Assembly (NCBI RefSeq): GCF_002019645.1
Contig: NZ_KV917374.1
Coordinates: 5,354,369 to 5,418,368, forward strand
Direction of reading: 5' to 3'
DNA: 64,000 bases
Origin: Litchfieldia alkalitelluris
GTDB lineage: Bacteria > Bacillota > Bacilli > Bacillales > Bacillaceae_L
The stretch's first letter is position 1. Every line of letters starts with the position of its first letter. The notes under the pieces were generated by a model that worked only from the letters and a program-made list of their open reading frames with translations, ran no database searches and had not been told where the DNA came from. Position numbers and translations under genes: made by a program. Below, piece by piece: positions 4,569-52,315 of the stretch.

Positions 4569-4978
4569 CTCAATTCCTCTTTTATATTCAAATAATACCC
4601 CCCGCAGAGGTACCGAGATACTTCACTTATTTATATTAGTTTCTAAAGATTTATTTCACTAGTTAATATTCTACTATAGAATCTATGGATTTTAAACATT
4701 TCTTAGTTTGGCTTCTTTTAAAAAACAACCGTTTTCATTTTAACATAGTAAAGACTCATAATGGAAAAAGAGTACCATTTCATTCTATTTTAAATAAGGA
4801 TATTCAGGAATAGTAGAGGTAATAATGACCACTTTAACATATTGTTAATACTTTTATATCTTAACGACATATAAAGTCGTTTTTTATACATGAATAGTGC
4901 TTTTATTGTGTTAGAGGTATTTGGAAGATAGAGAGAACTTTTTGGTGGTTTGATAAATCGTTGTCTAGCCTGTAATAA

Positions 4979-5100
4979 GAAAAGCGGAAGGCGCTTGTTC
5001 ATCGGCGACAGGAATAAGACAAGATGGCTAGAAGGTTGCTCTTTAACCTTCTAGAAGGATTGACTTAGACCTGAGAGCCGATAGCGCCTGGAGCTAGACA
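4979..5100. repeat. Structured dispersed repeat (AAAGCGGAAGGCGC ... GGAGCTAGACA type)
   Basis: About 120 bp that folds as a long stem: GGCGC near the left end pairs with GCGCC near the right end, ATCGGC pairs with GCCGAT, and a perfect 10-bp inner hairpin CTAGAAGGTT / AACCTTCTAG sits at 5028-5054. I know this end pattern as a common intergenic repeat in Bacillus relatives. Its left end alone recurs at 49617-49655. A 70-codon frame over it (4790-5002, minus) is an artefact of the repeat. Confidence 0.7.
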
Positions 5101-5131
5101 CAAACTAAAAGTATAAATTACTAACTTTTTT

Positions 5132-5174
5132 CATACTCCATGGTGCGAATATTTAAATTTGCGCGGGTGTCTAC
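5132..5174. repeat. CCATGGTGC hairpin repeat, copy 1
   Basis: A 43-bp segment closely matching 58856-58898 (shared CTCCATGGTGC, AATATTTAA core and a following GCRYGGRTG block). The centre is an inverted repeat, GCGAAT against ATTTGC. The second copy has GCTAAT against ATTAGC, so both arms changed together. Confidence 0.5.
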
Positions 5175-5195
5175 TAAAACAAATATTCATGCAAT

Positions 5196-5242
5196 ATAAA
5201 AGGTTAGGCGGTACCTAGTTTGAGGTACCGCCTAACACCTTA
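5196..5242 (-). terminator. Terminator of the GT2 gene
   Basis: Perfect 14-bp inverted repeat GTTAGGCGGTACCT / AGGTACCGCCTAAC with a 6-bp loop, followed on the minus strand by CTTTTATATT. It lies about 60 bp after the glycosyltransferase stop. Confidence 0.85.
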
Positions 5243-5304
5243 AGGATAGTAATATAATATAAAATTTTTCTTATAAAATAGAGATATTAATCCTCAACCA
5301 CAAA

Positions 5305-6321
5305 CTAATTAAAACCAACTAGCCTTTGAGAGATTTTATATGCTCCAACAGATATACTACGTCCAGCACGTCCAGGTAAGTTAGTTAAACCACCCAGTAT
5401 TCCATATTTTAGAGATTGGTATAATAGAGTATCTGTTTCTTTTATATACATCCATAATTCTTTTTTCTTCTTAAGATTTTCTACTGTACCTGAACGAATT
5501 AATAAAATTGTAGATACTACTGTAACAATTTCAAGATGCTTAAGCATATAGTTTCTTAATTTCAGATTTGGAATCGTCTCTAGGTCCACCTGCTCAATCA
5601 TCATTTTATTTACTTTAATCTGTTGATCAATTCGTTTGATCATGATATTTTCTTGAACCGACTGATCCTCTCTCCCGATAAAGTATCTATAAAAGTCAAC
5701 ATTAACATAATACATCGTCTTTACATGTTCAAAAGGAGTATAGACATATAAATTATCCACATAAAACGTATGCTTAGGAAGTTCAAGTTTACAATCCCTT
5801 AGTAATTGTGTTCGATAGATGACAGCATGCATCAATAGATATTGTCCTTTACGAAATTGTTTAATGTCATCCCAAGTAAAAGTGTGACCTTCGGGAAGAA
5901 CATTATCAAACTTCATGACTTTTTTATATCTTGCGCCCTCTTTTTCATAGACAAAATTACTAATCATCATATCTACAAAATTTTCGCCAACGACTAAATC
6001 TTTTAAAGTCTTTAATATTTTTAAATATGCACGAATATCAACCCAGTCGTCACTGTCCACAACCTTAAAATACAATCCGGTAGCATGTCGGATACCTGCA
6101 TTTACGGCTTCTCCATGTCCGCCATTTTCCTGATGAATTGCTTTTACCATGGTAGGATATCTTTTTGCATACCCATCTGCAATCGTTGCTGTTTCGTCTA
6201 CGGAGCCGTCATTCACTATCAGTAACTCTACATCTTCTCCACCTGGTAATAGGGACTCGATACAATATCTCATATAATCCTGCGAATTATAGCAAGGTAT
6301 AACTACTGATAATAATTTCAT
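5305..6321 (-). CDS. Family 2 glycosyltransferase
   Basis: A 338-residue GT-A fold glycosyltransferase (GT2). The N-terminus reads SVVIPCYNSQ, followed by the nucleotide-binding VNDGSVDET and the metal-binding DXD-type motif in VDSDDWVD (about residues 90-97). The C-terminal third is helical and basic, with only a weak hydrophobic stretch. ATG 6321 is preferred over GTG 6327 because AAAGGTAG is then about 7 bases upstream. It is the last gene of a decayed operon whose upstream members, a GtrA-like membrane protein and a GH3 enzyme, are broken. It may therefore have lost its original partner. The sugar donor and acceptor are unknown. Confidence 0.85.
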   Translation of the reverse strand: MKLLSVVIPCYNSQDYMRYCIESLLPGGEDVELLIVNDGSVDETATIADGYAKRYPTMVKAIHQENGGHGEAVNAGIRHATGLYFKVVDSDDWVDIRAYLKILKTLKDLVVGENFVDMMISNFVYEKEGARYKKVMKFDNVLPEGHTFTWDDIKQFRKGQYLLMHAVIYRTQLLRDCKLELPKHTFYVDNLYVYTPFEHVKTMYYVNVDFYRYFIGREDQSVQENIMIKRIDQQIKVNKMMIEQVDLETIPNLKLRNYMLKHLEIVTVVSTILLIRSGTVENLKKKKELWMYIKETDTLLYQSLKYGILGGLTNLPGRAGRSISVGAYKISQRLVGFN

Positions 6322-6359
6322 ACTCACACTACCTTTACATTATCCTGTTTATCAGGTTC

Positions 6360-6922
6360 TTATTTTAAAATCACTTTAAAGATTAGGAGGAATATCCAGA
6401 AGGAAATAGCACTGTTAATAATCATCGTAATGATATCTGCCGTTGTTTCTTCAACTGCTCCCATTCCTCATGTTTCCATTAATATATTATAGATTGGTGT
6501 TTATATAAGCATTGAGCTGCTACTACACCTATAGTAATCAACATAAGCAACTAAATACCGAAATGCTGCGTCCCAAATGTTGCTGTTTAATTTAAAAGTC
6601 ATACTTCTTTTGAGCAAAGAAGTTAATAATCTGTGCAATCCCAATGGTAATTTGAACTGTTAGGAATAAGCTAGACCACCTCCACCACCTGATGAAAGTG
6701 CACCTGCTACATAATCGAAGACAAAATAAGGGCTGGTATCAAAGTTTTAAGACCAAACTGTAAAACTTGGAAACTAGTACTTATAAGCAGTAATATTAAT
6801 TGTAACACTGTAATTCCATTACTCAACATAAAAAACACTACAAACAGTGCAGTATTTGGATGTTTTTCTTATTCGTGTCCTAAAGCCTAACGGCATGTTA
6901 ATTGTATCTTCTCTTTACTCAT
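6360..6922 (-). pseudogene. Decayed GtrA-like membrane protein gene
   Basis: No long frame survives, but frame-hopping on the minus strand gives a continuous GtrA-type protein: LQLILLLISTSFQVLQFGL, then FDYVAGALSSGGGG after a frameshift, then GIAQIINFFAQKKYDF, then FKLNSNIWDAAFRYLVAYV after a stop, and finally INSAISFWIFLLIFK. At least four frameshifts or stops separate the pieces. GtrA-like proteins move lipid-linked sugars and usually sit beside GT2 enzymes, as here. Its start (about 6922) directly follows the remnant GH3 stop (TAAAATG). Confidence 0.8.
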
Positions 6923-34777: not shown

Positions 34778-34905
34778 TTATCGTTATAGCAGTGATACTA
34801 GGCGTTAGTTATTCAACAAACCAATGGTTATAGGCGACTTTATCCATTTTATTGTCCACTTTTGGAGTTTTATTAGCCATTTTGAAGTTCTTATTAGCCA
34901 CTTTC
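34778..34905. repeat. AGCCATTTT intergenic repeat, copy 1
   Basis: Begins with ATCGTTATAGCAG and continues to a tandem of degenerate units containing TTTTATTAGCCATTTT. The same order occurs again about 290 bp away. A plus-strand frame of 88 codons (34567-34833) runs into it but has no ribosome site and is not called. Confidence 0.65.
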
Positions 34906-35065
34906 TAATATTTATCAATATTTACCATGATTTAATTAGATATATCATAAAAAATAAGGATGAAAAATAGATTTTTAAAGTATTAACACATATTGAATTC
35001 CTCCAATTAAAATTTTAGTTAGAAACTGTTGATTTATGGTTTCATTAACGATTTTTCAGCTGAGT

Positions 35066-35195
35066 CATCGCTATAGCAGCGAGACTGGATCCCCATTTTT
35101 TAACATACACATGGTTTATTGGCGACTTTGATCATTTTATTAGCCATTTTTAGAGTTTTATTAGCCATTTTGACCAGTTTATTAGTCAAGTTTCG
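35066..35195. repeat. AGCCATTTT intergenic repeat, copy 2
   Basis: Second copy of the preceding element: CATCGCTATAGCAGCGA, then TGGTTTATTGGCGACTTT, then three TTTTATTAG-type units. The first part alone is an inverted repeat (TCGCTATAGCAGCGA). The 160 bp between the copies is AT-rich and holds no gene. Confidence 0.65.
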
Positions 35196-44527: not shown

Positions 44528-48806
<4,279 letters not shown>

Positions 48807-48885
48807 ATCATCACTCCTTATCTTGTATTCCCTCTTTTTAGAACATATGTTTCCATTTTAACTGAAGTTAGGTGTTTTTTGAAGT

Positions 48886-49572
48886 CTATCCTTTTACAGC
48901 TTGTACAGTTTTTAGAGCTGCAGCAAGATCTCGATACACAATATTCCCTACAATGATGGTATCCGCAACAGCAGCCATCTCTTTTGCTTGCTCAGGTGTT
49001 GTGATTCCACCTCCATAGAAAAGTTTCGTGTTTGAAAGTACATTCCCGACCTGCTCGACAATCTCCCTTTTTCCATACATTCCACTATACTCTATATAAA
49101 AAATAGGTAAATGGAACATTTTTTCAGCCATTTGGGCATAAGCAATAATATCATCTATGTCTAAATCTGTTTTTGCATCCGTTAATGCGGCTGCTTTACA
49201 GTCTTTATTTAATATGCAATAACCTTCCATAATAATTTCATCCCAGTTCATCAACTCACCATATTCCTTAACCGCCTCATGATGAAGTCCCGTAATCCAG
49301 TCGGTCTTACGACTATTTAGAACCGTTGGGATAAAATAAAGATCAAATCCTGGGGTTACCGACTCAACAGTTGATACCTCTAGGACACAGGGAACCGTGT
49401 ATCTTCGCACACGTGACATTAAATGAATGACATTATCTATCGTCACCCCGTCACTTCCTCCAACTAAAATCGCATCTGTCCCTGACTCACAAATCGCTTC
49501 TAGTGCCTCATCACTAATTTCTTTATTAGGATCCAGCTTAAAAACGTGCTTCCACTCTTTATAATCGTACAC
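48886..49572 (-). CDS. pcrB: Heptaprenylglyceryl phosphate synthase PcrB
   Basis: A 228-residue TIM-barrel prenyltransferase that joins heptaprenyl diphosphate to glycerol-1-phosphate, making an archaeal-type ether lipid. GTG 49572 is chosen: it gives the known N-terminus [17 protein letters not shown] and has GGAGG 6 bases upstream, whereas ATG 49578 overlaps that site. Phosphate-binding motifs [16 protein letters not shown] and [12 protein letters not shown] are visible. It leads the pcrB-pcrA-ligA-camS operon. Confidence 0.96.
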
Positions 49573-49605
49573 GTTCATCCTCCATTCTCATGATTCCATT
49601 ATTAC

Positions 49606-49614
49606 ATTATAACA
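49606..49614 (-). promoter_or_regulatory. Extended -10 promoter of pcrB operon
   Basis: The minus strand reads TGTTATAAT, an extended -10 box (TGnTATAAT), about 35 bp before the pcrB start. No clear -35 box: the upstream bases belong to a truncated repeat element. Confidence 0.6.
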
Positions 49615-49616
49615 TC

Positions 49617-49655
49617 TTGAAAAGCGGAAGGCACCCTGATAACCGATGTATGTTT
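49617..49655. repeat. Truncated copy of the AAAGCGGAAGG structured repeat
   Basis: TTGAAAAGCGGAAGGCACC then ATAACCGATG resembles the left end of the 120-bp element at 4979-5100; the remainder is missing. It abuts the pcrB promoter. Confidence 0.5.
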
Positions 49656-49712
49656 TGGTATCGAGTCCATAGATTTCTAGCTAGGAGAGATTGGTGTCTA
49701 CGGAGGTTAATA

Positions 49713-51880
49713 TGCAATCTGAAGTTACCTTACCTTCGGACAACTTGACTGGTGAAATTGAAAAAGCTGTCTGAAGTTACCCTAACTTCGAACAGCCTGA
49801 CTCCGAAAAACCCTAAAGCTGTCTGAACCTACCCCACCTTCGGACAGCTTGACTCCCTAAAACCCAAAAGCTGTCTGAACCTACTCCACCTTCGGACAGC
49901 TTGACTCCCTAAAAACCAAAAGCTGTCTGAACCTACCCCACCTTCGGACAACTTGACTCCGAAAAACCCAAAAGCTGTCTGAACCTACTCCACCTTTGGA
50001 CAACTTGACTCCGAAAAACCCAAAAGCTGTCTGAACCTACCCTGACTTCGGACAACTTGACTCCGAAAAACCCAAAAGCTGTCTGAACCTACTCCACCTT
50101 TGGACAACTTGACTCCGAAAAACCCAAAAGCTGTCTGAACCTACCCTGACTTCGGACAACTTGACTCCGAAAAATCCAAAAGCTGTCTGAACCTACCCTG
50201 ACTTCGGACAACTTGACTCCGAAAAATCCAAAAGCTGTCTGAACCTACTCCACCTTCGGACAACTTGACTCCGAAAAACCCAAAAGCTGTCTGAACCTAC
50301 CCCACCTTCGGACAGCTTGACTCCTAAAAACCCAAAAGCTGTCTGAACCTACTCCACCTTCGGACAGCTTGACTCCCTAAAACCCAAAAGCTGTCCGAAC
50401 CTACTCCACCTTCGGACAGCTTGACTCCCTAAAACCCAAAAGCTGTCTGAACCTACCCCACCTTCGGACAGCTTGACTCCCTAAAACCCAAAAGCTGTCC
50501 GAACCTACTCCACCTTTGGACAGCTTGACTCCCTAAAACCCAAAAGCTGTCCGAACCTTCCCCACCTTCGGACAGCTTGACTCCCTAAAACCCAAAAGCT
50601 GTCCGAACCTACCCCACCTTCGGACAACTTGACTCCTAAAACCCATAAAGCTGTCTGAACATTACTCGACTTCGGACAGCTTCACTCCTAAAAACCATAA
50701 AGCTGTCTGAACATTACTCGACTTCGGACAGCTTGACTCCGAAAAACCCAAAAGCTGTCTGAACCTAATCCACCTTTGGACAACTTGACTCCGAAAAACC
50801 CAAAAGCTGTCTGAACCTACTCCACCTTTGGACAACTTGACTCCGAAAAACCCAAAAGCTGTCTGAACCTACTCCACCTTTGGACAACTTGACTCCGAAA
50901 AACCCAAAAGCTGTCTGAACCTACCCTGACTTCGGACAACTTGACTCCGAAAAATCCAAAAGCTATCTGAACCTACTCCACCTTCGGACAACTTGACTCC
51001 GAAAAACCCAAAAGCTGTCTGAACCTACTCCACCTTTGGACAACTTGACTCCGAAAAACCCAAAAGCTGTCTGAACCTACCCTGACTTCGGACAACTTGA
51101 CTCCGAAAAATCCAAAAGCTATCTGAACCTACTCCACCTTCGGACAACTTGACTCCGAAAAACCCAAAAGCTGTCTGAACCTACCCCACCTTCGGACAGC
51201 TTGACTCCTAAAAACCCAAAAGCTGTCTGAACCTAATCCACCTTCGGACAGCTTGACTCCCTAAAACCCAAAAGCTGTCTGAACCTACTCCACCTTCGGA
51301 CAACTTGACTCCGAAAAACCCAAAAGCTGTCTGAACCTTCCCCACCTTCGGACAGCTTGACTCCCTAAAACCCAAAAGCTGTCCGAACCTACCCTGACTT
51401 CGGACAACTTGACTCCGAAAAACCCAAAAGCTGTCTGAACCTACCCTGACTTCGGACAGCTTCACTCCTAAAAACCATAAAGCTGTCTGAACATTACTCG
51501 ACTTCGGACAGCTTCACTCCTAAAAACCATAAAGCTGTCTGAACATTACTCGACTTCGGACAGCTTGACTCCTAAAAACCATAAAGCTGTCTGAACCTTC
51601 CCCACCTTCGGACAGCTTCACTCCTAAAAACCATAAAGCTGTCTGAACCTACCCTGACTTCGGACAGCTTCACTCCTAAAACCCATTAAGCTGTCTGAAC
51701 CTTCCCCGACTTCGGACAGCTTGACCGCTCAAAATCAAAAAGCTGTCTGAACCTACCTCACCTTCGGACAGCTTGACTCCCAAGAAAGCTAAAAGCTGTC
51801 TGAACCTACCCTGACTTCGAACAGCTACACTCCCAAAAACCATAAAGCTGTCCGAACCTACCGCACGTCATACAACCTCC
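49713..51880. repeat. Tandem array of about 42 hairpin units with a 52-bp period
   Basis: Units start at 49713 (degenerate), then at 49765 + 52n for 39 consecutive starts through 51741 with no length change, then 51794 and 51846. Each unit has an arm AGCTGTCYGAA, an 11-bp loop (such as CCTACCCCACC, CCTACTCCACC, CCTACCCTGAC, CATTACTCGAC), an arm TTCGGACAGCTT and a spacer with two A-tracts (GACTCCGAAAAACCCAAA or variants). On the minus strand each hairpin is followed by TTTTGGGTTTTT, like an intrinsic terminator. The first two and last three units are the most diverged. Fifty-two is not a multiple of three and frames are broken; the 85-codon frame at 51208-51465 only reads the repeat. It is not a CRISPR, since spacers are not unique. 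Confidence 0.95.
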
Positions 51881-51883
51881 CAA

Positions 51884-51932
51884 CAAAACAAAAAGCAGCC
51901 CAAATCGCATGAAACCTCGATTCAGACTGCTT
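51884..51932 (-). terminator. Terminator of yerC
   Basis: On the minus strand AAGCAG-TC-TGAATCG pairs with CGATTTG-GG-CTGCTT, then TTTGTTTTG. Its 3'-arm region on the plus strand (TTCAGACTGCTT) resembles the array arm TTCGGACAGCTT, and it directly adjoins the last array unit. Confidence 0.85.
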
Positions 51933-51997
51933 AAGATCCATAAAACTAGACCCAGCTTTTATTAAACTAAACTCTTTCTCACGACAGAACTTAAAAA

Positions 51998-52315
51998 TCA
52001 AGCGTTCTCTGTAGGAGCTTCTTGATTTTCTTTTACACGATCTAGTGCCATTTTATAAGCGTCATTTCCATAATTCAAACATCTTTTCACCCTAGATATC
52101 GTAGCTGTACTAGCACCTGTTTGTGTTTCAATTTTATGATAGGTATTTCCTTCTTGAAGCATTCTAGCAACTTCAAGGCGTTGTGCAAGAGATTGAATTT
52201 CATTAACAGTACACAAGTCATCAAAAAAACGATAGCATTCTTCTAAATCTTTAAGCGAAAGAACAGCATTAAATAGTTGATCAAGTTCTTTTCCACGTAG
52301 CTTTTCTATTTGCAT
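51998..52315 (-). CDS. yerC: TrpR-like regulator YerC
   Basis: A 105-residue protein of the TrpR/YerC/YecD family. The helix-turn-helix is at about residues 45-80 (LAQRLEVARMLQEGNTYHKI, then GASTATISRVKRCLNYG). Family length and position beside yerB match B. subtilis. It probably binds DNA as a dimer, but its regulon is poorly known. It is the nearest DNA-binding protein gene to the 52-bp hairpin array; any link is speculative. Confidence 0.94.
   Translation of the reverse strand: MQIEKLRGKELDQLFNAVLSLKDLEECYRFFDDLCTVNEIQSLAQRLEVARMLQEGNTYHKIETQTGASTATISRVKRCLNYGNDAYKMALDRVKENQEAPTENA

Follow-up and report, generated by a model that had tools for sequence, protein, structure and literature searches.

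The yerC-pcrB intergenic region

The window analysed here, a stretch of 64,000 nucleotides from contig NZ_KV917374.1 of Litchfieldia alkalitelluris, carries a long tandem array of hairpin units in the spacer between yerC and pcrB, and a likely intrinsic terminator of yerC (score 23.6 on an ad hoc score) lies between that gene and the array (Table 1). TRF run on the window reports this region as one array at 49718-51866 with a period of 52 and 41.3 copies (score 2912, with 89% of matches and 0% of indels), and a hairpin scan finds 42 hairpins with a loop of 11 in 41 of them and a period of 52 in 40 of the 41 intervals. Both confirm the initial annotation, which had described about 42 head-to-tail units with a 12-bp inverted repeat around an 11-bp loop. 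A listing of the units likewise bears out its claim that 39 unit starts, from 49765 to 51741, follow each other at exactly 52 bp; the next steps are 53 and then 52 bp.

Table 1. Coordinates of the features discussed (window positions, unless a locus is named).
Feature	Position	Strand	Remarks
pcrB (PF01884), downstream gene	48886..49578	-	
52-bp satellite array, whole, about 42 hairpin units	49713..51880	.	TRF, unit listing, hairpin scan
First unit, degenerate	49713..49764	+	
38 units, each exactly 52 bp	49765..51740	+	35-bp hairpin (12+11+12) and 17-bp spacer
Terminal units, decayed end	51741..51880	+	One 53-bp step
Likely yerC intrinsic terminator, between yerC and array	51887..51930	-	Stem 51895-51930, T run on minus strand
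yerC (Trp_repressor family, PF01371), upstream gene	51998..52315	-	
Unrelated-sequence 52-bp array in yerC-pcrB spacer of G008	L071 1979-2162		
Unrelated-sequence 52-bp arrays in yerC-pcrB spacer of G014	L077 707-905, 971-1370		
PF00872 element insertion	L017 about 5180-6679		
PF00872 element insertion	L030 about 4718-6216		

The stem of the units is AAGCTGTCYGAA/TTCRGACARCTT, and the core of the 38 exact units reads TGTCYGAA-N11-TTCRGACA. The 39 in-register units comprise 27 distinct sequences, and 18 of the 39 have a C-A mismatch at unit position 31. Folded as single-stranded DNA, a well-matched unit reaches -9 kcal/mol (z -6.6) and a mismatch-bearing one only -4.1 (z -2.0), which is weak support for a hairpin. 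Spacer variants that keep the same length through compensating changes, as had been noticed earlier, are present (unit 50597 compared with unit 49817). No convincing gene had been seen inside the array, and this agrees with a single, mechanically called ORF of at least 60 aa (85 aa) and with a period that is not a multiple of 3. The 4-kb bin at 48001-52000 has the strongest GC skew of all such bins in the window (-0.323), probably because the array is pyrimidine-rich.

A function tied to yerC or pcrB had been considered, and a search of relatives at this locus had been suggested. Sixteen further genomes of the family were compared over 3.3-kb loci; the exact core is absent from the yerC-pcrB spacer in 16 of 16, and the spacer measures about 135 bp in two congeners (G001 and G002). 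Two relatives, G008 and G014, have 52-bp arrays of other sequence there; their spacers are filled separately with unrelated arrays, which suggests that this spacer tolerates such arrays and that no particular one is kept. Because the array is missing from the spacer in all the relatives, a conserved local role is not indicated. A function specific to either gene, which is at odds also with some 30 such places in the genome, was therefore dropped.

Related arrays in the same genome

A 116-bp piece of the window array gives 201 BLAST matches in its own genome (5.43 Mb), and the exact pattern GCTGTCYGAA-N7..15-TTCRGACAGC occurs there 221 times, against 0 for the reversed pattern. The sample of this genome consists of 26 stretches around listed match sites together with the window, so that array numbers are lower bounds; it holds at least about 30 hairpin clusters, 27 of them with at least 5 units. 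The array that had been singled out is real, and it is one of at least about 30 of its kind. Over the 27 loci, 479 hairpins were counted, with a loop of 11 in 465 and a period of 52 in 428 of 449 intervals. A modal period of 52 and a modal loop of 11 are found in every one of the 27 arrays, two of which are the two sides of a single array interrupted by an insertion. Identity between arrays is 0.94 for the stems and 0.42 for loop and spacer, as against 0.30 for shuffled sequences (better of two strands).

A mutator-type (IS256-like, PF00872) element was found inside two different 52-bp arrays, with 99.4% identity over 1502 bp. A 60-bp repeat at G000:C1:5253301-5253802 (8.4 copies) has a 218-codon open frame over it and is probably coding.

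Flanking ORFs were assigned mechanically, and 37 of 51 arrays have two of at least 240 bp; 24 of these arrays lie between co-directional, 12 between convergent and 1 between divergent ORFs, as raw counts without a genome baseline. Of 47 gaps that separate a gene end from an array, 19 hold a strong terminator-like hairpin (score threshold 17), where 0.45 were expected. The threshold was raised to this value because a loose one gave no clear signal (28 of 47 gaps compared with 46% of shuffles, no clear excess). When the strand of the T-G/C-A wobble was compared with replichore or gene direction, the signal was weak.

Distribution across genomes

Of 396 genomes in the order, 27 have the core TGTCYGAA-N11-TTCRGACA, and they belong to 13 of 135 genera; the reversed control pattern occurs in one genome, with one hit. 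The core is patchy within genera; genome G204, for example, has 306 hits and G229 none. At class level it occurs in 8 of 398 genomes, namely L. alkalitelluris itself, G002, G099 and G128 within the order and, beyond it, G421, G525, G535 and G554; only G535 among the latter four has more than one exact hit (13). The array of this genome from another order (G535:C14:75840-76258) advances in 52-bp steps that are broken twice by 66-bp steps. Twenty-one loci were fetched from 16 other genomes, and the array filter was passed by 19 (L037 and L057 failed); these 19 loci have a loop of 11 in 150 of 158 hairpins and a period of 52 in 123 of 139 intervals. Among named genomes, at least 115 core stretches came up, and the 80 matches listed include Texcoconibacillus, Mesobacillus, Neobacillus, Cytobacillus, Robertmurraya, Evansella, Calidifontibacillus, Peribacillus and others. 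Five loci with such arrays (L187, L191, L199, L202 and L205; JAGGQZ01...) come from records titled Chryseobacterium sp. ISL-80, a title that looks wrong.

A frame shared between 52-bp families

The wider class was sampled in 200-kb stretches of six genomes (G002, G014, G016, G022, G204 and G251), picked by contig, and array density in this sample is a biased estimate because G002:C18, G014:C33, G204:C1 and G251:C1 were already known to have core hits. Tandem repeats whose period is 30 or more number 42 in the six stretches, and 31 of them are of 51-53 bp or multiples thereof (14 in G002, 8 in G251, 7 in G204, 2 in G016, 0 in G014 and 0 in G022). The remaining 11 have periods of 36, 42, 91 (twice), 99, 117, 122, 168, 203, 246 and 456. 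An open frame of at least 137 codons lies over 8 of these 11; the 122-bp repeat is without one, and the 91-bp repeats contain, by eye, tRNA-like sequence.

TGTC-N19-GACA occurs exactly in 15 of the 31 arrays (shuffled mean 0.02), 12 of the 15 lying outside the TGTCYGAA/TTCRGACA core, and with at most one mismatch in 20 (shuffled 0.94). Gaps of 5-44 between TGTC and GACA were tested, and only 19 (15 arrays) and 37 (one array) occur. The exact frame is missing in 16 of the 31 arrays, and in 11 it is missing even at one mismatch. Among the 27 published consensuses shown, the frame is present in 7 (5 exact and 2 with one mismatch), as compared with 0.0007 exact and 0.017 one-mismatch occurrences per family in shuffles of those 7, and was not found in the other 20.

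The inner arms differ by subfamily, being YGAA, AA, CAATA or CTTCAT, and GTTCAT in one of the published families shown. To count their pairing, 69 arrays (30 of them from L. alkalitelluris) were collapsed by genome and arm to 54 distinct rows, in which the conservation of TGTC is circular since the rows were selected by the frame itself; loci from the named-genome scan were excluded because the search pattern had fixed their core. Watson-Crick pairing of the inner arms over six pairs amounts to 67%, compared with 53% after shuffling of the right arms (67% is reached in 0 of 2000) and 14-31% when the arms are slid; neither this shuffle nor that of the frame is a probability, because arrays within a genome are related, and comparison with shuffles makes the evidence look stronger than it is. 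Several families described as unrelated have one frame in common, TGTC-N19-GACA at a pitch of 52 bp, and its arms vary in concert. No earlier account of the core letters or of the frame was found in the open-access texts consulted.

Constancy of unit length and helical pitch

Loop and spacer within arrays show 17 distinct indel units against 485 minor alleles (3.5%), and ordinary yerC-pcrB spacers show 10 gap events against 211 substitutions (4.7%; eight pairs, which share sequences). Arrays do not have clearly fewer indels than ordinary spacers, which argues against strong selection on every unit. Given this near-background share, length would be guarded, if at all, between arrays, where the modal value is unchanged across the 27 arrays of L. 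alkalitelluris despite much substitution. Homogenisation could be part of this constancy, and either off-length units fail to amplify or drifting arrays get lost.

Periods of 51, 52 and 53 fit five helical turns, and a step of 41-42 or 62-63 was not found in core-bearing arrays of the same genome or of the 16 other genomes. The 66-bp steps of G535 tell against helical phasing, as do a few non-coding repeats of other period that lack the core, recorded outside the 200-kb stretches at 30 bp (L050), 45 bp (L063) and 66 bp (L175). Core-less repeats of 41-42 bp comprise five rows of 42 bp, two of them the same locus in G204, and one of 41 bp (L197). The repeats in L145 and G204 are overlain by open frames of 218 and 137 codons, and those in L183 and L197 resemble, by eye, doubled 20-21-nt repeats. 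Helical phasing of the array is possible. The suggestion that all hairpins or half-sites would face one side of the DNA holds for whole units, which are in phase, but not for every half-site, since half-sites in the window array are alternately 23 and 29 bp apart.

Possible origin and function of the array

The window array almost certainly belongs to the 52-nt class of non-coding satellites already published for Bacillus-like bacteria. The best explanation overall is probably that of such a satellite locus forming an array of dyads at the DNA level, and we infer with moderate confidence that it acts at that level. Each unit would present the dyad TGTC-N19-GACA, with arms tending to stay complementary, and tandem duplication together with unequal exchange may have spread the units in non-coding spacers, mostly downstream of genes. 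Our preferred, if tentative, reading of the mechanism is that the dyad is bound by a candidate dimeric protein, probably of the nucleoid type, and that the array is a fast-turnover satellite of such sites. The five-turn pitch would let neighbouring dimers stack on one face, and off-length units would then not take over arrays though loops and spacers drift. That the array docks a DNA-binding or nucleoid protein, as the published authors also propose (PMC8161180, in the text available), is possible; the protein is putative, none that binds the dyad being known or found here. Other points that weigh against this reading are the indel share inside arrays, the locus that relatives do not keep, the arrays and published consensuses without the frame, the broken stem pair in many window units, the 66-bp steps of G535 and the transcription of B. 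coagulans 52-nt satellites. With similar reserve, many of the 52-nt families may be regarded as one superfamily, defined by TGTC-N19-GACA dyads, a 52-bp pitch and co-varying arms, and served by one conserved putative protein that would build a regular DNA filament in many genera.

The array being real and its class published, we would rank the mechanisms approximately in the order of dyad sites, selfish satellite and RNA role. Directly after dyad sites, and as a serious possibility if not the one we would choose, comes satellite DNA that is selfish or neutral and whose units spread by slippage, by unequal exchange and now and then by being copied into a new spacer; constant length would then reflect common descent and amplification bias, without function for the cell. 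The orthologous spacer without the array in all 16 relatives, the patchiness within genera seen in G204 and G229, the near-background indel share within arrays and the array-specific loops and spacers are all in its favour, as is the partial conservation of the satellites between B. coagulans strains described in PMC8161180 (in the text available). It accounts less well for a length of 52 bp that is held between arrays despite the low identity of loop and spacer, and a cross-genus frame with co-varying arms is not what would be expected of drifting junk. A function at the RNA level, also suggested by the published authors, in which transcribed hairpin chains serve as sponges or small RNAs, appears unlikely. 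Room is left for it because the 52-nt satellites of B. coagulans are transcribed, being present in RNA-seq reads (PMC8625621, in the text available), and because the arms pair and co-vary. On the other side stand the strong terminator-like hairpin found between gene and array in 19 of 47 gaps, and likewise after yerC, the lack of an Rfam family at gathering score, and, from an informal reading of the table, a C-A mismatch that many arrays have on one strand, a strand whose orientation to the adjacent genes varies.

The further idea of a transcription barrier or insulator shielding pcrB-pcrA-ligA would fit the position of the array between yerC and pcrB, as well as the mostly convergent or co-directional contexts of the arrays. 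It is nevertheless very improbable: the likely terminator of yerC is already present, no examined relative has the window array at this place, and the units are without a long terminator-type T run on the plus strand.

The shared frame recasts a class described as having constant length and no common sequence as a concrete binding-site hypothesis, and it supplies a bait sequence, a spacing series (47, 52 and 57 bp) and a comparison of families across genera. Should a binder exist, spore formers would have a new nucleoid organiser that recognises a specific sequence; should there be none, these arrays would be a clear example of satellite DNA in bacteria governed by an amplification ruler.

Comparison with known repeat systems

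REP and BIME elements are extragenic palindromes present in many copies, often downstream of genes, and are associated with RAYT transposases. The 52-bp arrays resemble them in being extragenic, palindromic and numerous, and differ in being long, head-to-tail and of fixed pitch. A GTAG or CGTC tag at REP/BIME palindromes is named in the title of PMC3733652. A REP/RAYT system was rejected, since the Y1 transposase PF01797 shows no association: it occurs in 9 of 10 genomes rich in arrays and in 8 of 10 that are free of the core; G099, with 195 core hits, has no PF01797 match.

Regular palindromic repeats are also a property of CRISPR arrays. The loops and spacers here are alike within the array and not unique, and the neighbours are yerC and pcrB; the earlier view that the array is neither CRISPR nor a known riboswitch agrees with this and with the absence of Rfam families at gathering score within the window. 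An Rfam RNA was set aside on the latter ground, and a coding repeat in view of the single 85-aa mechanical ORF. An array of intrinsic terminators was rejected as well, the units reading TTGACTCC or similar 3' of the stem on the plus strand; their minus strand has, by eye, a short T run only. A six-unit piece of the array gave no match in plasmid and phage collections, and a mobile carrier was accordingly discarded.

Bacillus repeats of 52 nt were reportedly treated already in J Bacteriol in 2020. Non-coding tandem repeats of 51-53 nt in Bacillus, with constant length and variable sequence, were described by Subirana & Messeguer (IJMS 2021, PMC8161180), who in the text available count 1886 of this length among 4029 repeats in 176 genomes, find that about 30% of species have the 52-nt class, with several families per genome, partly conserved between strains of B. 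coagulans, and with short signals often accompanied by their reverse in one repeat, and suggest that a polymerising protein or small RNAs are involved. Their data include Bacillus alkalitelluris (NZ_KV917374.1, 5.43 Mb, GC 36.4%) with 69 repeats of 51-53 nt, among them family 71_52_7 with the signal AAAGCTGTC, the published consensus of which, as shown, is that of array L014 of this genome apart from soft positions. Taken as tandem repeats of 51-53 nt in at least 4 copies, the class includes the window array, which has 52 bp and 41.3 copies; it is likewise non-coding, and the 27 arrays of the genome combine equal length with different sequence (loop and spacer identity 0.42). The authors state in the available text that there is no conservation of sequence between species, whereas here a core and a frame recur across many genera. 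The 27-bp dyad, its 11-bp loop and the co-varying arms do not appear in that text, in which the word hairpin has 0 occurrences.

The 20-21-nt Bacillus repeats, as presented in the same text (PMC8161180), are alike in having a constant length close to whole helical turns and a variable sequence, and differ in spanning two turns instead of five. Repeats of 21 bp (TTTATTAGCCA...) at 34847-34915 and 35115-35185 of the window are of this published 20-21-nt constant-length class. The 52-nt class itself is already known, for B. (Litchfieldia) alkalitelluris too, and what is added to it here is the shared frame that links its families.
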